From: an uncultured Actinomycetes bacterium
GTDB taxonomy: Bacteria; Actinomycetota; Actinomycetes; Actinomycetales; Bifidobacteriaceae
Assembly: GCA_900314875.1 (NCBI GenBank)
Contig: OMWX01000003.1
Coordinates: 47,151-111,150, forward strand
Length of the DNA: 64,000 bases
Direction: 5' to 3'
The notes beneath the pieces were generated by a model. The model did not search any database, had not been told where the DNA came from, and saw only the letters and a program-made list of their open reading frames with translations. Below are positions 2,370-13,775 of the stretch, one piece after another (position 1 is the stretch's first letter; each line of letters starts with the position of its first letter). Made by a program: the position numbers and the translations under genes.

Positions 2370-2837
2370 AATATCCCTATTTCTCTCTTGCGGACACAAA
2401 CCGGCGGCGCGACAGCCGGAAGCGAAGCGGTTCGCGCGCCATAATGCGGACAGCGCGATATGCAATACAGCTTCGGCCGCGCATTGGAAATCGATGCCAA
2501 TACCTCCGAAGTCTCTCAAGAATCCCTCCGGAATCACTTTTAAACGCGTTTCAAGCCGGTTCATGCCGCTGTTTCTCTCAAGTTATATTCTCTGCTTACT
2601 TTACTCCATCAAAACGCGGCACACAACCTGAAAACAAGTTGAAAATACGCGCATTGCGCAAGGGCGGCAGTTCGCCGCAGGAGCGGCGGCAATATTGTAT
2701 AATTAATACAAGGTGAGGCTTTACAGCAATTTCAAGCCCCGAGAGCCGCAACGCATTTTTTAATGAGAACGTGTCGGGCGGCTGCGTTTGCTTTTGCCGT
2801 GCCGAGCGAGAAAAGAAATAAGAGAGGAAAAGGAAAA
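2370..2837. other. divergent intergenic region between prepilin and pilB units
   Basis: About 470 nt with no convincing gene. It is visibly more GC-rich than the pilin genes on its left, with several GGCGG/CGCC inverted stretches around 2661-2690. It must hold promoters for both pilus units; a consensus -10 for pilB is at 2698-2703. Short open frames here lack family resemblance and good ribosome sites. Confidence 0.6.
2698..2703 (+). promoter_or_regulatory. -10 box of the pilB-pilT promoter
   Basis: A perfect TATAAT preceded by TTG lies 134 nt upstream of the pilB start. No good -35 element is visible at the expected distance, so the promoter may depend on an activator or the extended -10. 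Confidence 0.5.
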
Positions 2838-5270
2838 ATGAGCGAGAAATCAGGATTCTTTTCATTCAGGAAGAAAAACAAGAAAAACAAGGGGGACGGC
2901 AAAGACGGCAAGTCGAACGAGCCTACGCTCGTAACAGGCGAGCTTAATCAGATTTTCACGCCCGCGAAAGCAAGATCGGCTCAGACAGACGACTCGCAGG
3001 CAGACGGCGGACAGGACAGAACGCAGCCGGGCAATGCGCAGGCAGGCGGAACACAGCCCAGAACCGCAAATATGCAGGGCGCGGCTTCAGCCGGCACAGC
3101 TTCTGCGGGAGCTGCTTCAAATCCGTTTGCCGGCAGTTCCAATGTGCCTCCGGCTCCGGCGGGCGCGCAGAACCGCGATTCTTATAAGGCAGCGCATGCG
3201 CAGGCAAGTTCGCAGGCTAATACTCAAGCAGGTTCTCAGACTGCTTCCGCAAATTCCGACGCAGGCGCGTTCAATCCCCCGTCGCCCAAGATTCCAAGCG
3301 TGTCCGAAGACAGTCTGGCATTCCCGGTTTCCGAGGGAACAGGTTCTCGCCGCGCAGCGAATGCGGGCGAAAGCGCAGCGGTTTCAGGCGCGACTGCTTC
3401 AGGAACAACCGGCAACACAAGCGCGAACAGCGCGGCAAACAGCTTTACGGCAGCCGTGACGGCTTCGGTGTTCCCCGACGCGCAGACAGGAAATAACGGA
3501 GCTTCGGCTGCGAATGCCGCTGCGGGAGTCGCTGAAACTGCGGGAGCAAGCGCGTCCGGCGCAGCCTCGGCAAATACGGTTTCGGCTTCGACTGAAATTT
3601 CGGCATTCCAAGCCGCTTCCCAAGATGTGCAAGTAAGAGATCAGAGCGGCGAACAAGTTGCAAACACTGCCGAATCCGCTCAATTTTCACAGGAAACTTC
3701 AGGCACAGAGCTTGTCGTTATCTCAGAAAAAGACCAGGAACGCCAGGATGCGATGGCTCTTGCAAAGTCCATGAGCCTTCCGTTCGTGGATTTGAACGAA
3801 TATCAGATTGACACGGACGTGTTCGCGCGAGTTCCCGACGAGCTTTGCCGCAAGAACACTCTTCTGCCTCTGTCGATTATCAACGGACGGCTTGCGGTCG
3901 CAATGGCAGACCCGGGCAACTTTACGGCAATCGACGATTTGGCAGCCGCCACAGGAATGCCGATCCTGCCCATGGTCGCAATACCGGCGCAAATTACGAC
4001 GTCAATCAACCGTTATCTGCGAGCAAACGCGGAGCTTGACGAGATTTCAAGCGAAATCGCGGCAGCGGCAGAACCGGAATTCAACCTTGAAGAAAGCGAG
4101 TCGGAAGACTCCTCGCCCGTAGCAAGATTCGTAAGCCTGCTTATAAATCAGGCAATCGACGATCACGCTTCGGATATCCACATCGAGCCGGGAGAAGACG
4201 GACTTCAGGTCAGATACCGAATCGACGGCGTTCTGCATATTTTCCAGGAAGCGCCCAAAGCCATGGCAGCCGGCGTTATCAGCCGAATCAAGGTTATGAG
4301 CGAAATGGACATCGGAGAACGCAGAAAGCCTCAGGACGGACGAATCACGGTACGCCACAGCGGCAAGAAAGTTGACCTTCGAGTCGCTTCCCTGCCGACA
4401 GTCTGGGGCGAAAAAATCGTTATGCGAATCCTGAGCACGCCGGCCGGAAATCTTAAAGTGTCCGATTTGGATCTTTCCGAGAGAAACTACAAGGTCTACC
4501 ACGGCGGATACGAGCGTCCCTACGGCATGGTGCTTATCACAGGACCTACAGGTTCGGGTAAGTCAACCACGCTTTACGCGACGCTTGGAGACATCGCAAG
4601 ACCGGAAATCAACATTATTACCGTTGAAGATCCTGTCGAGTTCCGCATGAGCGGAATCAACCAGGTGCAGGTAAACGTCAAAGCCGGGCTTACGTTCGCG
4701 GCTGCATTGCGTTCGATTCTGCGAGCCGACCCGGATGTCGTGCTGCTCGGAGAAATTCGAGACGCGGAAACCGCGAAAATTGCAGTCGAAGCGTCGCTTA
4801 CGGGACACTTGGTTCTTTCGACGCTGCACACGAACGACGCGCCCAGCGCAGTCAGCCGACTGGTCGAAATGGGCGTAGAGCCGTTCCTTATCAGCTCGTC
4901 GCTTGCAACCGTCATGGCGCAGCGACTGGCTCGCCGCCTGTGCAACGACTGCAAGAAAGCCGACACTGCAACCGAAGCAGACCTGAAGCTTCTGGGAATC
5001 GAACACGAGCCCGGCACTCCGATGCCGACCATATATCGCGCAACAGGATGCCGCGAATGCTCTGACACAGGATACCGCGGTCGAGTGGCAATCCACCAGA
5101 TTATGGATGTCACGCCCGAAATTCAGACGCTTATCTCAAAGAATGCGACAACGCACGAAATCGAGGAAGCCGCGAACAAAGGCGGAATGACCGACCTGCG
5201 CACCGACGGATGGCAAAAAGTGCTTCAGGGAATCACTTCCGTAGAAGAGATTCTGCGAGTCACCGTCTGA
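2838..5270 (+). CDS. pilB: type IV pilus assembly ATPase PilB
   Basis: PilB/GspE-type hexameric ATPase that powers pilus extension from the cytoplasmic side of the membrane; 810 residues. Start chosen at ATG 2838 (AGGAAAA immediately upstream). Domains: a basic N-terminus, then about 260 residues of Ala/Ser/Gly/Gln/Thr-rich sequence without obvious fold (about 25-285). An MshEN-type N-terminal domain follows (about 300-390), then the N2 domain (SDIHIEPGEDG near 445). The ATPase core has Walker A GPTGSGKST at about 569, Asp box VEDPVEF, Walker B DPDVVLLGE near 632, and His box LVLSTLHTNDA. A tetracysteine zinc site is CNDC (about 702-705) and CREC (about 738-741). The family is usually 550-600 residues, so the disordered tract explains the excess. 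pilT follows 196 nt downstream on the same strand. Confidence 0.95.
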   Translation: MSEKSGFFSFRKKNKKNKGDGKDGKSNEPTLVTGELNQIFTPAKARSAQTDDSQADGGQDRTQPGNAQAGGTQPRTANMQGAASAGTASAGAASNPFAGSSNVPPAPAGAQNRDSYKAAHAQASSQANTQAGSQTASANSDAGAFNPPSPKIPSVSEDSLAFPVSEGTGSRRAANAGESAAVSGATASGTTGNTSANSAANSFTAAVTASVFPDAQTGNNGASAANAAAGVAETAGASASGAASANTVSASTEISAFQAASQDVQVRDQSGEQVANTAESAQFSQETSGTELVVISEKDQERQDAMALAKSMSLPFVDLNEYQIDTDVFARVPDELCRKNTLLPLSIINGRLAVAMADPGNFTAIDDLAAATGMPILPMVAIPAQITTSINRYLRANAELDEISSEIAAAAEPEFNLEESESEDSSPVARFVSLLINQAIDDHASDIHIEPGEDGLQVRYRIDGVLHIFQEAPKAMAAGVISRIKVMSEMDIGERRKPQDGRITVRHSGKKVDLRVASLPTVWGEKIVMRILSTPAGNLKVSDLDLSERNYKVYHGGYERPYGMVLITGPTGSGKSTTLYATLGDIARPEINIITVEDPVEFRMSGINQVQVNVKAGLTFAAALRSILRADPDVVLLGEIRDAETAKIAVEASLTGHLVLSTLHTNDAPSAVSRLVEMGVEPFLISSSLATVMAQRLARRLCNDCKKADTATEADLKLLGIEHEPGTPMPTIYRATGCRECSDTGYRGRVAIHQIMDVTPEIQTLISKNATTHEIEEAANKGGMTDLRTDGWQKVLQGITSVEEILRVTV

Positions 5271-5466: not shown

Positions 5467-7413
5467 ATGACTGACACACCGCAGGCAGGAACACAGCCGG
5501 GAATGCCGGCATCCGACTGGGAAAACCAGGGAAACGGTTCTGTTCCCGGCTTCCCCGCTCAAACATACAATGCGACCGAAAGCGACGCGGCGATTGCAGC
5601 GGGAACAAATGAAGCGTTCGATTCAGCGGCATTCGCTGCAGAGGATGCGGACGGCAGCGTATTAAACTTCGCTCCCGCCGGAGTTTCCCTGCAAAAAGAA
5701 AACTTTTCATTCCCGAAAACTCCCGTAGAGATGGAACAGGAAAACATCCCCACGAAAGACGATATCGCGTCCGCACTGGCAGAAGCACAGGCTAAAGCCC
5801 AAGCAGAAGCAGAACAAGCCGAACAGGCGCGAATCGCAGCCGCAGCCGCACAGGCTCGCGAACACGCGGCACAGTCCGCAGCTCAGGCAGCAGCAAGAGC
5901 AGCAGCGCAGCAGCAGGAAGCCGCAACCGCACAGACCGCTCAAACTGTCCCGGCATCCCCCGCTTCCTCGCAGGAAACGGCGGCGACAGTCGCAGAAACT
6001 CCTCTCGAAGCTGCAAACGCGTCTTCATTCGACACTTCAGCCTTCGATTCGTCGGCGCCGAATTCGCCGGCTTTCAACTCGCAAACATACATGTCGCCGC
6101 TCGATACGCCGGCTGACAACACAAATCAGGAAAATAATTTTATGAATAATACGCAAGATTCTCAGGCGAACGCGCCCACGCAGCAAATGGACGCAATTCC
6201 GGTCGCAAACAATGCTCCGGTACGCAAGAAGCCTGTTTTTGACTTCGTAGTGCCTGAAGGAAACGAAGGCGACGATACCGTAACCGACGAGCGCCGCAAA
6301 AAAGCAAAGCTCGTAGCGGAAACGCTTATGACCGAGCATCCGGAAATCGAGCGCGATCTGGTAATCGCCATGACACAGCTGGTTTTGCACAACTCTTCCG
6401 ATATGCACCTGGTTGTCGGAGCGCAGCCGATGCTGAGAACCGACGGAAAAATCGGACCGGTTCCGGGAACAAGCAAGTGGAACAAGGACAACACTTGGGA
6501 AGCCGTAAAAGTCATGACAAGCGAAGAAGACCGTCACCGCTTCGAAACGGATTTGGAGCTTGACGTTTCATTTGCAATCGGAGACCTGCTCCGTTTCCGT
6601 GTAAACGTTTACCACGACCGCCTGGGAGTTGCTCTCGCATTGCGTACCATTCCCATGGAAATCAAGACTGCGCAGCAGCTCGGACTTGACGCTTCCATTA
6701 CAAACCTGGCACTCGAGCCGCGAGGACTGGTGCTTGTCTGCGGTCCTACAGGTTCAGGTAAGTCTACAACCCTTGCGGCAATCGTAGACAGAGCCAACCA
6801 GGAGCGTCACGACCACATCATCACAATCGAAGACCCGATCGAGTTCGTGCACCAGCACAAAAACTGCGTTATGAGCCAGCGAGAAGTCGGAACCGACACA
6901 AAGAGCTTCGCAGAAGCTCTTAAGCGCGCTCTGCGAGAAGATCCTGACATCATCGAGGTCGGAGAGCTTCGAGACCTGGAAACAATTTCGACAGCAATCA
7001 CAGCTGTTGAAACCGGACACTTGGTATTCGCCACGCTGCACACGCAGGACGCTGCCTCGACCGTTGACCGTATGATCGACGTATTCCCCGAAAACCAGCA
7101 GCAGCAGGTGCGAATCCAGGTTGCTTCCACGCTGAAAGCCGTTATCATTCAGACGCTTGTCCCCCGCGCGACAGGACACGGACGAGCGCCGGCAACCGAG
7201 GTTATGTACAATACGGCCGCTATATCCGCACTTATTCGAAGCGGAAAGATCCACCAGGTACGCACGCAGCTTCAGGCCGGCGGCGACTTGGGAATGCACA
7301 CGCTCGACCAGGATTTGGCGCGTCTTGTAAACTCCGGAACAATCAAGTACGAAGACGCTCTGAAGAAAGTACAGATTCTCGACGAGTTCAACAAGCTCGT
7401 CGGAGCGCGCTGA
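5467..7413 (+). CDS. pilT: type IV pilus retraction ATPase PilT
   Basis: PilT-type ATPase for pilus retraction; 648 residues against about 350-380 for the family. The first 275 residues or so are Ala/Gln/Ser/Glu-rich, including a long helical Ala-Gln-Glu stretch (about 100-155). The PilT fold begins near 280 (VIAMTQLVLHNSSDMHL). Visible motifs: Walker A GPTGSGKST (426-434), Asp box IEDPIEF, Walker B DPDIIEVGE, His box LVFATLHTQDA, and a C-terminal IRSGKIHQVRTQLQ segment matching the AIRNLIRE region needed for retraction. No tetracysteine zinc site is present, as expected for PilT and unlike PilB. GGAG lies 5 nt before ATG 5467. A strong terminator ends the unit. Retraction capability suggests twitching or DNA uptake rather than static pili only. 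Confidence 0.93.
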   Translation: MTDTPQAGTQPGMPASDWENQGNGSVPGFPAQTYNATESDAAIAAGTNEAFDSAAFAAEDADGSVLNFAPAGVSLQKENFSFPKTPVEMEQENIPTKDDIASALAEAQAKAQAEAEQAEQARIAAAAAQAREHAAQSAAQAAARAAAQQQEAATAQTAQTVPASPASSQETAATVAETPLEAANASSFDTSAFDSSAPNSPAFNSQTYMSPLDTPADNTNQENNFMNNTQDSQANAPTQQMDAIPVANNAPVRKKPVFDFVVPEGNEGDDTVTDERRKKAKLVAETLMTEHPEIERDLVIAMTQLVLHNSSDMHLVVGAQPMLRTDGKIGPVPGTSKWNKDNTWEAVKVMTSEEDRHRFETDLELDVSFAIGDLLRFRVNVYHDRLGVALALRTIPMEIKTAQQLGLDASITNLALEPRGLVLVCGPTGSGKSTTLAAIVDRANQERHDHIITIEDPIEFVHQHKNCVMSQREVGTDTKSFAEALKRALREDPDIIEVGELRDLETISTAITAVETGHLVFATLHTQDAASTVDRMIDVFPENQQQQVRIQVASTLKAVIIQTLVPRATGHGRAPATEVMYNTAAISALIRSGKIHQVRTQLQAGGDLGMHTLDQDLARLVNSGTIKYEDALKKVQILDEFNKLVGAR

Positions 7414-7670: not shown

Positions 7671-8462
7671 TTACTTTTTAACGCCGCCGAAACGCCGGTC
7701 GCGGCTGACATATTCGTCAATCGAACGCCACAAAACCTCGCGTCCGCATTCGGGGAAAAGCTCGGGAGCGAAACTTAACTCCGCATAAGCTGCCTGCCAT
7801 GGCAAAAAGTTGGACGTGCGATGCTCGCCTGACGTGCGTATAACCAGATCGCAGTCGGGAATATCAGGATTGTACAAATGATCCGAAATCATTTTCTCAG
7901 TAACCTTATTCCCCTTGATTTTCCCGTCGCGGGCGGCTTGCAAAATATCGGAGCAGGCATCTGCAATCTCAGCTCTTCCTCCGTAATTAATGCAGAAAAC
8001 AACGTCGATGGTTTTATTGCTTTTAGTGCGTTCCATCGCGGATTCAAGCTCGGCTATAACCGACTTCCACAAGCGGGGACGGCGGCCCGACCAGCGCACT
8101 CGCACTCCCCATTCGTCCATCTGCGCAACGCGGCGGCGGATAATATCGCGCGAAAACCCCATAAGAAAACGCACTTCGGACGGGGAACGCTTCCAGTTCT
8201 CGGTCGAAAAAGTGTAAAGGCTGAGATACCGCACGCCGGCTTCAATCGCGCCGGCAATCGTGTCGAAAACGACGGGTTCGGCAGCCTGGTGACCTCTCGT
8301 GCGTTCAAGCCCTTGCAGCTGCGCCCAGCGGCCGTTTCCGTCCATAATCACGCCGATGTGACGCGGAACCTTGTCCGCGGGAAAATCGGGGATAATCGAA
8401 GGGTTTGAAAAAGGAGCAGCGGGAATGTTCAGCGATGTATAGTCGACGTTTTCAAAGCTCAT
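7671..8462 (-). CDS. uppS: isoprenyl transferase (undecaprenyl diphosphate synthase)
   Basis: cis-Prenyltransferase that condenses isopentenyl diphosphate onto an allylic primer to make the C55 lipid carrier for cell-wall synthesis; membrane-associated. 263 residues from ATG 8462; the frame continues upstream but those residues are a low-quality hydrophobic stretch translated from the pyrimidine-rich side of a simple-sequence region. Motifs: IMDGNGRWA with the catalytic Asp, RTRGH, YTFSTENWKR, and RTSGE...SNFLPWQ..YAEL near the C-terminus. The order dxr-ispG-...-recO-uppS puts it in the same block as two MEP-pathway genes. No strong ribosome site is visible; a 457-nt repeat-rich gap separates it from recO, so it may have its own promoter. 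Confidence 0.95.
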   Translation of the reverse strand: MSFENVDYTSLNIPAAPFSNPSIIPDFPADKVPRHIGVIMDGNGRWAQLQGLERTRGHQAAEPVVFDTIAGAIEAGVRYLSLYTFSTENWKRSPSEVRFLMGFSRDIIRRRVAQMDEWGVRVRWSGRRPRLWKSVIAELESAMERTKSNKTIDVVFCINYGGRAEIADACSDILQAARDGKIKGNKVTEKMISDHLYNPDIPDCDLVIRTSGEHRTSNFLPWQAAYAELSFAPELFPECGREVLWRSIDEYVSRDRRFGGVKK

Positions 8463-8919
8463 AGTAACGAATTTACCAATACAGCTGCCCCGGAAGCAAA
8501 AAAGCGCAAGAATTAACGTATGGAATAACGGAAGAAACAACGGAAAATACAGAGAAATACAGAGAAATGCAAGGAACGCAGGTAAGGCAGAGAAAACAGA
8601 GGGATACAAGGGATACAGGAATTGCAGATAAATGCAAGGGACGCGGGGAAATCAGACAGATTCAAACAAATTCTGCAGAAACGCCAAGAGGAAGAGAGAA
8701 AGAAAGAGAGAGAGAGAGAAAAAAAAAAAAAAAAAAAAAAGAAAAAAAAGGCAGTCAGAGAAAGCATTCACCGGAGAAAAGCAGACAGGGACAGTATCCA
8801 AAGAAAGCAGACATGAGAAAACCCGGAAGAAAACCCGGAAGAAAACCCGGGAAAACAGGCGGAGACAGTATTCAGAGAAACCGGCAGGAAAAGCAGCAAG
8901 ACAGACTGAAAAATTCAGT
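8463..8919. repeat. simple-sequence intergenic region between recO and uppS
   Basis: A 457-nt gap rich in purines on the plus strand. It contains an uninterrupted 66-nt purine tract (8686-8751) with a run of 22 A (8719-8740) and alternating GA before it. Three copies of the 12-mer GAAAACCCGGAA lie at 8817-8852, and AATACAGAGA-type near repeats around 8548-8570. No supported gene. As transcribed with recO and uppS (minus strand) it is a long pyrimidine tract that could affect read-through. Confidence 0.85.
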
Positions 8920-10623
8920 CTAAGAAATGCGCAGAGAGCGCAAAGGATGCTCCAGGTAGTATTCGCACCAGCGAGCGACGGCGGCGGGCACAGAAGGACT
9001 TAAAACCGGGGTTAAAACACGGGGGTGACGGGTTTGCGGGTTTTGCGCGGTTTGCGATGTTTGCGCGGATTGCGCGGCAGCAGAATTTTTCCTGCAAATC
9101 CGCAGATAATCCCAGTCTCCGTTAAGCAGAGCCGTCATATGAGGAATAAAAAATTCGTCGGCAGGATAGATATCAGCCGAATAAAAGCCCGTCGAGCAAT
9201 TGTCTGCCGAGCAATTGTCTGCCGAGAAATTGCCTGCCGAATAAACATCGATCGAGCTTGCGCCGGTCGAATAATTGTCAGTCGGATATGTGCCGGTCGA
9301 ACTTGTGCCGGTCGAAGAAGCGTCAGAAGAACCGGCAGCGGATGAACAAACAGCAGAAGAATGAGCAGCGGAAGAATGAACAGCGGAAGAATGAACATTG
9401 CCAAAACGGGAATCAGCTGAATATAAACCCGCAGAATCAGAACCCGCAGAATCAAAATCGCCCCGAAATGAGTTCTGAGACGAGTTCTGAGACGAATCCT
9501 GCGATAAGTCCTGAGACAAACCTTCAGATAAGTTTTGAGACGATTTCTGCGAAGAATTGCTCTGTAAAGAGTCCCGCGATGACCTTTGAGGCAAATCTTG
9601 AGACAAACCTTGAGGCAAATTCTGCGATAAATTCCGCTGCGAACCCTGATGCGAGCTTCGAAGCGAACTTTGCTGCAAGCTCTGCTGAGAATTATGCTGA
9701 GAATTATGCAACAAACTCTGCGATGAGCCGCGTAACGAGCCGGATGAGCCGGATGAGCCGGATGAGCCGGAATACGGCAAATTTGAGTGCAGCGAGCACA
9801 GCATTCCTCCCCCGGATACCGAAAACGCATTCAAAACAGCGCCCTGCTGCTTTGTCCGTCCGCATATAACGCACGAATTCAGGCGCGGAAGCCAGCCCGC
9901 AGCAGCCATAGACCGCAGAGAATAAGACAGGCGGATATCCTCGGCCGGGTTGCGTTTGCGAGCCAGTGCCGACAGAGCCGAACCGAAAAGCAGATACTGA
10001 CGTTCAGAGTCAAAAATTGCGACTGCAGAAGGATTCGAGGAAACGGCAGAATGCGAGGAGACGGAAGAATACGAAGAAGCTGAAGGGTTCGAAGAGTCAG
10101 CGAAATTCGAGGAAGCAGAGGAATCCGACAAAGCAGCAGAATCCGGAGAGGCAAAAGTATTGAAAGAACCCGAAGAAGCATCTGAACCGGGAGCGGAATT
10201 TGAAGCGAAATGCGAGGATTTTTGCCGGCTTTGAACAGATGAACGAAAAGCATGCGGCTTCGATGCGCAATTCAAATAATTTCCGGCAGAACTTTCGGGA
10301 GAACATCCCAGAATAATCCTCTCTGCAATTTCGGCAATCACATTTGCGCAAACATACAAATCATAATCCGAACAAATCGCTTCAGAAAACGCGTCCAAAG
10401 TCACAGCCTGCGAAACAACGTCAAAACCGCGCCCTGAAGCGATTAAAAAATCATTTCGCATGAAAGGTTCAAGCCGACCTCCAAAACGCGTTTTAATGCG
10501 CCTTACTCCCCTCACAGCGGCACGCACTGCCCCGTGTCCGCGAGTAAGAATCGTCACCAGCCTGTCCGCCTCGCCCCAGTCTGTCGTGCGGATAACAATG
10601 CCTTCGTCGCGATATGACGGCAT
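8920..10623 (-). CDS. recO: DNA repair protein RecO with two large low-complexity inserts
   Basis: RecO loads RecA at gaps with RecR and anneals single strands. The N-terminus (MPSYRDEGIVIRTTDWGEADRLV) is the OB-fold of RecO, and the C-terminus (ARWCEYYLEHPLRSLRIS) is also typical. The protein is 567 residues; RecO is usually about 240-270. The excess is two inserts: about residues 108-203 (Ser/Ala/Asn-rich) and about 284-490 (Ser/Gln/Asn repeats, then Ser-Ala-Asp-Thr-Gly pentad-like repeats). The core helical segment (RQYLLFGSALSALARKR...) sits between them. The second insert starts right after the zinc site (CVIC at 251-254, C276, possibly H279). The frame stays open throughout, so the inserts are translated unless frameshifted by length variation. 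Ribosome site AAAGGA before ATG 10623. Confidence 0.93.
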   Translation of the reverse strand: MPSYRDEGIVIRTTDWGEADRLVTILTRGHGAVRAAVRGVRRIKTRFGGRLEPFMRNDFLIASGRGFDVVSQAVTLDAFSEAICSDYDLYVCANVIAEIAERIILGCSPESSAGNYLNCASKPHAFRSSVQSRQKSSHFASNSAPGSDASSGSFNTFASPDSAALSDSSASSNFADSSNPSASSYSSVSSHSAVSSNPSAVAIFDSERQYLLFGSALSALARKRNPAEDIRLSYSLRSMAAAGWLPRLNSCVICGRTKQQGAVLNAFSVSGGGMLCSLHSNLPYSGSSGSSGSSGSLRGSSQSLLHNSQHNSQQSLQQSSLRSSHQGSQRNLSQNLPQGLSQDLPQRSSRDSLQSNSSQKSSQNLSEGLSQDLSQDSSQNSSQNSFRGDFDSAGSDSAGLYSADSRFGNVHSSAVHSSAAHSSAVCSSAAGSSDASSTGTSSTGTYPTDNYSTGASSIDVYSAGNFSADNCSADNCSTGFYSADIYPADEFFIPHMTALLNGDWDYLRICRKNSAAAQSAQTSQTAQNPQTRHPRVLTPVLSPSVPAAVARWCEYYLEHPLRSLRIS

Positions 10624-10684: not shown

Positions 10685-12478
10685 TCACCAGAAAACATAA
10701 ATACCCCAGAAAGCCATCAGCAGCAGAACCGAAAACATCGCAAGCGAAAAAACAGCGAAATAAACCCGCCCCAGACGCGTCGAAGCGAAAACAGGCTCAA
10801 AAGCCCTGGCAGCCCGTTTTTTCTCAAGCTTGGGATTGCGGGCAAGACGTTTCGCGGCCGCAACCGTGTCCATATAGTCGAGAACAGGAATATTCGGGAA
10901 AGGAATTTTGCCCCGGCGCACGCCCGTTTCAACGAAAGAAACCAGCACTCGCGACCAGACCCAGACAAGCGAAACGCAAAGAATCTGAACAATATTCCAG
11001 CTCCAGACAATATAGCCCGGCTTAGAAGGCGCAGCTCCCCAGACCAGTTTGACAATTTCATATGCGCATGTGCCGAAACCCGTGCCCAGCGCGGCCGCAC
11101 AAACAACCGTTGCGGCAAAAAGCGCGACAATCGACATTCGCAGCTTGTAAGTCAGCCCCAAAACATCGCGCACGCGCAGACCCGGCTTGAAAAAATAATA
11201 AACATATTTCGCAAACACAAGCAAAGACACCAGAACAGCAACTGCAATCATAACGAACGCGAACAAGTGAACCGCAAACATTGAGTAAGTAAAAATGTCA
11301 TGCCCGGCCGCCTCTGTCGGAACTGAAATCGACTGAACAATCTTGCTGCCTGCGATTGCGGGCGTGGTCTGCTTAAGATTTCTGACCGTTCCGACCGCCC
11401 AGGAAACCATGTCATTCTCGTATTTGTCGACGAAAGGCGTGCCTTCCTCAGCTTCGTCGCCCAGACGCAGAACATGGTTGCCGATCGGATAATTGCGGAT
11501 TGTTATGTCAGAATTTCCGCACTCTTTCGCGGTGTTTACGATTTTGTACGTTCCGCCGACCTGAGAGGTCATAACGTCTTTAGCGCCCCATGCGACAAAA
11601 GTCGGAACATATGCCGCCAATTCCGGATGCGGGTCAAAATCAAAATTGTCAAGCCCTATTTTCGATGCGGAAATGCTTAAAATTCTGGGGAAAATCTGTC
11701 TGTATCCCGTGTGCGCTCCGATAATCGACATGTCCTGAGACATCATGAAAGCCAGGGATTGTCTGGGATTGTATGTCATCGGACTTAAAAGAATCTGAAA
11801 TGCGAGGCGTCCGTCTTCGCGCGCAACCGCAGGCGAAATCCAGGCGCTTTCGGAAGTCGCGTAAATTCCCGCGCGATCCGGGTCGACATCCGCGCGGTTT
11901 CGCAGGTATTGAATGCACTGTTCATAAGCATGAGCCGAAGCCGGATAGTCGCGAGTCAGGTCGTTCGTCGACCAGACGGGCTTGTCGACCGTAAGAGCAA
12001 CAAAACCTGCGGAAGCCAAGTCCTCGGAAACATCGCCGAATGAGTTGTCAGCAGTGCCGTATCCCGCTCCGTGCATGAAAACGACTGCCGGGAGTTTGGC
12101 ATTTTCTTCAGCATTTTTCGGGAAACGCACCAAAATCGCCGCATTCTGTATCTCTCCCGTGCCCGGGCGTTCCAGCGCAATCGTGTCTCGAATCTGCGCA
12201 ACCTCATAAGTTCCGCGCTTCGGGAGAACCTGCCCGCCGGGATTTTCAAATTCAACGTCGGTCCTGTCCGACATCGTGCTGATTGACTGCTCGTAAGGCT
12301 TCAGCTTCCAGACGATATCGGTAAGACCGGAAACTGAAGCGAAAATAAACATTAAAATCGCGAAAACGGGAACGGAAGAAATAATTCTGCGCCCGTAGCT
12401 CCACCTTTGATTTTTCGCCGCAAAAACAAGGTTTTCAAGCGTTTCCGAACGCAGGCGATCAGTTTGTGAGGTTTGCAT
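10685..12478 (-). CDS. membrane-anchored alpha/beta hydrolase
   Basis: A 597-residue protein with a transmembrane helix near the N-terminus (about 35-58), a catalytic domain on the far side, and about four C-terminal transmembrane helices. The hydrolase part shows an HGAGYG oxyanion-hole motif, a nucleophile-elbow-like ATSESA segment, an acidic WGAKDVM segment and a GNHVL histidine. The elbow is non-canonical, so substrate and activity are open; an envelope esterase or acyltransferase is reasonable. Start placed at ATG 12478: upstream frame residues overlap ispG in another frame. The 20-nt overlap with ispG suggests translational coupling. Bifidobacteria often carry hydrolases of this kind in the recO-ispG interval (from memory). 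Confidence 0.75.
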
Positions 12479-13775
12479 GATTCGCGCCGAAAACGGGAAA
12501 GACTTCAGGTTTTGTTTTCTGAGAGCCGGTTTTTTCCGCTCCTGATTTGCCGGATTCTGTTTTGTCAGCTTCTGATTTTTCCGCTCCTGATTTTTCCGCT
12601 TCCATTTTTTCGGCGATAATGTGCGCCTGTTCAAGCAGAGTCGGAACAATCTCGTCTTCGGGAACGGTTTTAATAACTTCGCCTTTAATGAAAATTCTGC
12701 CTTTTCCGTTGCCGGAAGCCACGCCCAAATCCGCTTCTCGCGCTTCTCCCGGACCGTTGACAATGCAGCCCATAACAGCAACTCGAATCGGAGCTTGCAC
12801 ATCTTTCAGCCCTTCGGATACTTTCTGAGCCAGATCAATCACGTCAACCTGAGCGCGGCCGCAGCTCGGGCAGGAAATAATGTCAAAATGCCGTTCGCGC
12901 AGACCGAAATATTCGAGAATCTTGCAGCCGGTCTTCACTTCCTCTTCAGGAGGCGCGGACAGAGAAACGCGAATCGTGTCGCCGATTCCCTCAGACAGCA
13001 AAGCTCCGAAAGCCAGACAGGTTTTCACTGTCCCCTGCCAGGCCGGACCTGCCTCGGTAACGCCCAAATGCAGCGGCCAGTCGCCTTTGGAAGCCAGAAG
13101 CCTGTATGTTTCGATCATGGTTATCGGATCGTGATGTTTTACGGAAATTTTGAAATCCTCAAAACCGCAGTCCTCAAAAAGCCGGGCTTCCTTCAGCGCA
13201 GACTCGACAAGAGCTTCAGGCACGGCAGCGCCGTATTTTTCGTATATCTCTTTATCCAGCGAACCGGCATTGATTCCGATCCGCAGGCTGATTCCGGCAT
13301 CTTTTGCCGCTTTGCACATATCCTGTCCGACAGTTTCAAAATTGCGAATATTTCCCGGGTTTACGCGCACTGCTGCGCAGCCGGCCTCAATCGCTTCGAA
13401 AACATATTTCGACTGAAAATGAATATCGGCTATGACAGGTATGGGAGAAGCCTTGCAAATAGCCGCAAGAGCATCGCTGTCTTCCTGATTGGGAACAGCT
13501 ACGCGCACGATGTCGCAGCCGGCCTGAACAAGAGTGCCGATCTGGCTTAAAGTCGCGTTCACGTCGGCCGTGCGCGTGTTCGTCATAGATTGCACGGAAA
13601 TCTCGGCGCCGCCGCCCACAGGAACTTTTCCGACGTTGATTCTCCTGGTTTTATGTCTTGCGTGCAGAGGGCTTTGACAGATGTCTGCCGCAGCCGCCTT
13701 TTGCTTTTCTGCATTTGCGCTCTGCCGTCGCTCAGCCGCGCTCTGCCCTGTTTTTCTGAAGCCTGATTCGCTCAT
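12459..13775 (-). CDS. ispG: 4-hydroxy-3-methylbut-2-enyl diphosphate synthase (IspG/GcpE)
   Basis: [4Fe-4S] enzyme converting methylerythritol cyclodiphosphate to HMBPP, the penultimate MEP-pathway step. 438 residues. Visible are VQSMTNT near the N-terminus, ADIHF, and the iron-sulfur cysteines in SCPSCGR and in GCIVNGPGE, followed by the family end ...[13 protein letters not shown]. Two additions are seen: a Gln/Ala-rich N-terminal extension of about 45 residues, and a C-terminal tail of about 45 residues made of Glu-Lys-Ser-Gly/Ala repeats (about 390-425). dxr lies 93 nt upstream on the same strand, so two MEP genes are co-transcribed, and uppS is three genes downstream. Confidence 0.96.

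Follow-up and report, generated by a model that had tools for sequence, protein, structure and literature searches.

Repeat Growth in Three Loops of RecO in a Genome of the Family Bifidobacteriaceae

Introduction

RecO proteins (PF11967/PF02565, TIGR00613), recombination mediators that bind DNA, RecR and SSB and assist in the loading of RecA, have in common an OB-like N-terminal domain, a helical core, a CxxC...CxxH zinc site and a C-terminal helix. Their size is given as 200-270 residues, and their zinc ligands follow the consensus CxxC...C/HxxC/H/D (PMC9456098). Departures from this compact form occur within the Bifidobacteriaceae: the RecOs of Bifidobacterium stellenboschense, B. aesculapii, B. 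avesanii and one further genome (G001/L014) show low-complexity growth of surface loops, as does the RecO described here, but their inserts, at most about 90 residues long, are smaller and lie in the sites referred to below as loop A, the zinc knuckle or loop C. Low-complexity regions of prokaryotes have also been surveyed more broadly (PMC6821194), and the Ser/Gly/Gln/Ala-rich tract considered here is of the type that has been attributed to slippage or recombination. In contrast to the regions of that survey, however, it is situated within a repair protein that is normally compact, and the adjoining noncoding spacer has grown as well.

The gene was analyzed in a window of 64,000 nucleotides, to which all coordinates refer unless a contig is named; the relatives found put the genome within the family Bifidobacteriaceae. 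The RecO encoded here has 567 residues, against 227-354 in the compared relatives, and it carries three low-complexity loops, one of which (loop B) is without counterpart in the relatives found. An earlier note on this DNA had drawn attention to this tract and had suggested either a tolerated disordered loop or a gained function, such as contact with single-strand-binding protein (SSB) or DNA. We present it as a striking case of repeat growth and not as proof of a new function, and the explanation that we regard as quite probable is a lineage-specific, in-frame repeat expansion tolerated in the loops of a RecO that is itself probably functional.

The Conserved RecO Core

Identified by its open reading frame and by family models, recO (8920-10623, minus strand) runs for 567 codons from an ATG at 10623 and is stop-free along its entire length. 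The product matches the Pfam models RecO_N (77.3 bits, 9e-22) and RecO_C (41.8 bits, 1e-10), and it scores 86.5 bits with NCBIfam TIGR00613, for which the cut-off is 48.7. The gene is single-copy in the 1.47-Mb genome, which also encodes RecF, RecR and SSB, and it neighbors uppS, as in relatives. With 567 residues, the protein falls outside the range of 200-270, which is typical but not defining, and the surplus is found in the three low-complexity loops.

The anatomy of the protein was read from an alignment to the RecO of Pseudoscardovia radai. The N-terminal OB domain, together with the first long helix (residues 1-106; 10306-10623, minus strand), is identical to that protein at 66 of 106 positions (62%). 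Residues 206-286 belong to the core and hold the ligands C251, C254, C276 and H279, all of them invariant between the two proteins. This zinc site (C251-x2-C254 ... C276-x2-H279; 9787-9873, minus strand) matches the RecO consensus, and zinc binding itself is predicted from the motif. C276 and H279 are indeed located where the earlier note had placed them, and the CxxH pair is common to the Pseudoscardovia protein; since the published consensus allows CxxH (PMC9456098), H279 is unremarkable as a ligand. Beyond loop B, the core resumes with residues 487-505 (9109-9165, minus strand), which align without gaps to ATDRRVLDELTQLLTGDW of P. radai; identity is weaker here (7/20), and the segment ends in the conserved LLxGDW. 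The C-terminal helix (residues 547-567; 8923-8985, minus strand) is again well conserved, with 13 of 20 residues identical to P. radai. In an AlphaFold2 model, the core has mostly high pLDDT, and a fold search of this model against the PDB returned RecO structures as all of its ten best matches (TM-scores by target of 0.61-0.71).

These features bear on the possibility that recO is decaying, in that repeats pile up in a gene whose product has become dispensable. The loops interrupt what is otherwise a compact protein, the overlap with uppS that is seen in some relatives has been lost, and the genome is smaller and lower in GC content than that of the related genus, all of which could accompany such decay. 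However, 567 codons have been maintained without a stop or frameshift, the N-terminal domain, the zinc ligands and the C-terminal helix are kept, and the partners RecF and RecR are still present, which makes decay very unlikely.

Three Expanded Loops and Their Repeat Structure

Loop A (residues 107-205; 10009-10305, minus strand) consists of 35% Ser and has an 18-bp periodicity. Loop B (residues 287-486; 9166-9765, minus strand) comprises 200 residues of Ser, Gln, Asn, Gly, Ala and Asp, which come after H279, the last of the zinc ligands, and before the next helix of the core. Its bounds were set by the Pseudoscardovia alignment, and they bear out the repeat tract of about 205 residues that had been reported at 9154-9774. 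Within loop B, 9-bp units encoding SGS are followed by 12-bp SQ[ND]L-like units and then by 15-bp units resembling [YF]SADN or HSSAV. Loop C (residues 506-546; 8986-9108, minus strand) is of low complexity as well, with a 9-bp periodicity. The expansion of loops A and C, as well as a 457-bp repetitive spacer 3' of recO, goes beyond what the earlier note had described.

The repeat structure was assessed against dinucleotide-preserving shuffles. The best single-lag self-similarity of loop B is 0.457, compared to 0.302 +/- 0.009 in the shuffled sequences (z 17, 0/300); loop A lies 8 SD and the recO-uppS spacer 4 SD above its shuffles, and two recO core segments gave no repeat signal in the same test. 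Matches between the units of the tract are about equally frequent at all three codon positions, the third included. In the 15-bp part, the synonymous share of differences is 0.25-0.41, depending on the threshold, with 0.26 expected, and is thus near neutral. In the Ser/Gln-rich 12-bp part, 14 of 28 single differences are synonymous (0.50, with 0.23 expected), which may be a hint of some constraint on the amino acids, although such an excess could also stem from overlaps among the comparisons and from transition bias.

Could the tract be an artefact of assembly? The assembly comprises 12 contigs, and the repetitive nature of the tract could favor such an error. Yet it lies in the interior of a 318-kb contig, it is in frame and continuous, as the earlier note had stated, and it is unique in the genome. 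Moreover, its units are degenerate and the exact repeats within it are short. An assembly artefact is therefore highly improbable. A mobile or phage origin of tract and spacer was considered and dropped, because neither has a second copy elsewhere in the genome and no match to the tract was found in phages.

The earlier note had also pointed out that the tract is open in another frame. This is correct: besides the recO frame, the coding strand has one further frame without stops over 204 codons, and the antisense strand has one as well (codon shuffles: P 0.012 and below 0.001), which could suggest that an overlapping sense or antisense frame is a gene too. Codon shuffles overstate the surprise of these open frames, however, since in-frame repeats copy units that are already free of stops, and neither alternative frame matches any Pfam family. 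We give dual coding next to no weight.

At the protein level, AlphaFold2 assigns pLDDT values below 50 to residues 337-488 and nearly throughout 108-202. The helices that it places at 295-332 were discounted: the next helix of the relatives is partly aligned there (L304 is near-invariant), and these helices are probably an artefact of misaligned relatives in the modeling. Of the two suggestions made earlier, a tolerated disordered loop fits these observations, given the conserved core, the pLDDT of mostly below 50 and the lack of the tract in relatives; from this, we infer that the loops are disordered in the cell and that RecO activity is retained.

RecO Across the Family

A single-protein scan of genome contigs found no relatives, whereas an alignment-based scan did. 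The comparison covers about 88 other genomes, including Pseudoscardovia radai, P. suis and many Bifidobacterium species, and their RecOs have 227-354 residues. None of these about 88 proteins has a counterpart of the tract, so that at the level of the family it does not represent an ancestral domain of constant length.

Site B is about 24 residues long in nearly all relatives, while the neighboring loops vary. The only relative with a small insert at this site, of about 14 residues, is B. moraviense; two high values for site B in the table of loop lengths (L060, L133) are anchor errors, and for one relative (L062) the true B loop is longer than scored. The site of loop A has about 7-25 residues in most relatives, against residues 107-205 here. 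The maxima reached in particular other species are 58 residues in loop A, 89 in the zinc knuckle and 81 in loop C. Loop growth thus recurs in the RecOs of the family, and the protein described here is the extreme case, at a site that is otherwise of near-constant length.

Repeat Growth Beyond the Reading Frame

Downstream of recO, a spacer of 457 bp (8463-8919) separates the gene from uppS (7671-8462, minus strand), which encodes a polyprenyl diphosphate synthase and likely starts at the ATG at 8462. The two genes overlap by 4 bp in Pseudoscardovia and Aeriscardovia and are 1-12 bp apart in most Bifidobacterium, and a gap of about 394 bp is found in one Gardnerella. The spacer is repetitive and purine-rich: no other 400-bp stretch of the 318-kb contig is as strand-asymmetric as the one starting at 8493, in which purines make up 0.78 of the plus strand, and an A-rich run lies at 8719-8749. 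As this spacer replaces the short junction of relatives, growth has not been confined to the reading frame. Four terminator-like sites are present on the minus strand at 8822-8942 (0.9 expected), one of them partly within the end of recO.

Other enzymes of this genome show in-frame growth as well, on a smaller scale, among them RimI, RecF and IspG (the last described below). RimI (TIGR01575; 40063-40806, minus strand) has 247 residues, compared to 132 positions in the model. An insert rich in Ser and Asp lies within the protein, and its C-terminal tail of GSNSE repeats is encoded by a 15-bp array matching at 98%; this expansion is apparently young. RecF (contig C2, about 48.5-49.7 kb) contains a Ser-rich loop (YSEKSESAKSESADFYSAELESAESEE) that is reminiscent of the RecO tract.

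The favored explanation, a tolerated in-frame expansion, could be outlined as follows. Short repeats of 9, 12, 15 and 18 bp would have multiplied in frame in three surface loops of RecO, above all in loop B, ahead of the core helix that follows the zinc site, adding about 310 mostly disordered residues and bringing the protein to about twice its usual size. Because the adjoining noncoding spacer grew too, the process is placed at the level of the DNA, where it would have given rise to the 457-bp, purine-rich repetitive spacer and would have enlarged other genes, most likely by strand slippage or unequal exchange between short repeats. Within the gene, selection would have needed to maintain only the frame and the core, and repeats would have persisted where they remained in frame and in loops. 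The core, judging from its conservation, presumably binds zinc and does the usual work of RecO together with RecR, RecF and SSB.

Alternatively, the Ser/Gln/Asn loop might have taken on a function as a disordered region, for example by gathering RecO on single-stranded DNA coated with SSB or within SSB condensates, or by making weak contacts to DNA. RecO binds SSB and DNA (PMC10018359), SSB condensation is reported to involve disordered regions of SSB, and the synonymous excess in the Ser/Gln sub-tract, as well as the place of RecO among the contig's proteins richest in low-complexity residues, while the RecOs of relatives are compact, would be compatible with such a role. On the other hand, similar growth has occurred in adjoining noncoding DNA, in RimI and in RecF, units match at every codon position, the 15-bp part is near neutral, and the tract is shared with no relative. 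Moreover, in E. coli it is a pocket in the helical core of RecO, and not a loop of this kind, that binds the SSB tail (PMC10018359). There is little positive evidence for a gained contact with SSB or condensates, and this second suggestion of the earlier note appears unlikely. A more specific version is slightly less likely still: in it, the lineage-specific loop next to the zinc site would draw RecO into SSB condensates or hold it at gaps of single-stranded DNA, with mediator activity tuned by the number of repeats.

The locus illustrates the extent to which repeat growth can stretch a compact, conserved repair protein while frame and core are kept. A genome without detectable MutL, in which loops of RecO, RecF and RimI are swollen, provides a natural test of whether such sequence is neutral ballast or raw material for disordered functions. 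As RecO helps to handle single-stranded gaps, a repeat hotspot in recO itself also raises the question of feedback.

Genome Context

The genome (1.47 Mb in 12 contigs) has a GC content of 48.6%; the genome statistics rest on sampled stretches, mainly of contig C3. It encodes NucS, and no match to a MutL-type mismatch-repair domain was found in it. Since NucS does not correct indels (PMC8228993), products of slippage would be left uncorrected. The contig has 24 bp/kb of tandem repeats, and two genomes of the related genus have 46 and 11-14 bp/kb; its density is therefore ordinary for the clade. To our knowledge, MutSL is generally lacking in Actinobacteria, so that neither mismatch repair nor repeat load explains why recO is extreme. 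Only a CRISPR-like array exceeds the recO region, which is otherwise the contig's densest 1.7-kb stretch of repeats. The array itself, on contig C3 at about 203.3-204.5 kb, has a period near 66 bp and is the densest tandem-repeat window of the contig.

A screen for inserts relative to orthologs gives insert sizes in other proteins only, recO being excluded by the coverage filter, and some of the length excesses across the contig are false (fused permeases, wrong starts), as gene starts were left unrefined. Several further proteins have repetitive or low-complexity segments. IspG (12459-13775, minus strand) has a repetitive C-terminal tail of Lys, Glu, Ser and Ala, with a 15-bp array at 12531-12602. 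The first SSB ends in DEFGSEDMPEF, whereas a second SSB (contig C3, 240226-240525) has a repetitive Ser/Gln/Thr/Asp-rich tail without an acidic tip. ATPases of the type II/IV secretion or pilus type (2763-5270, corresponding to 49913-52420 on contig C3, and 5467-7413) carry long Ala/Ser-rich N-terminal regions of low complexity.
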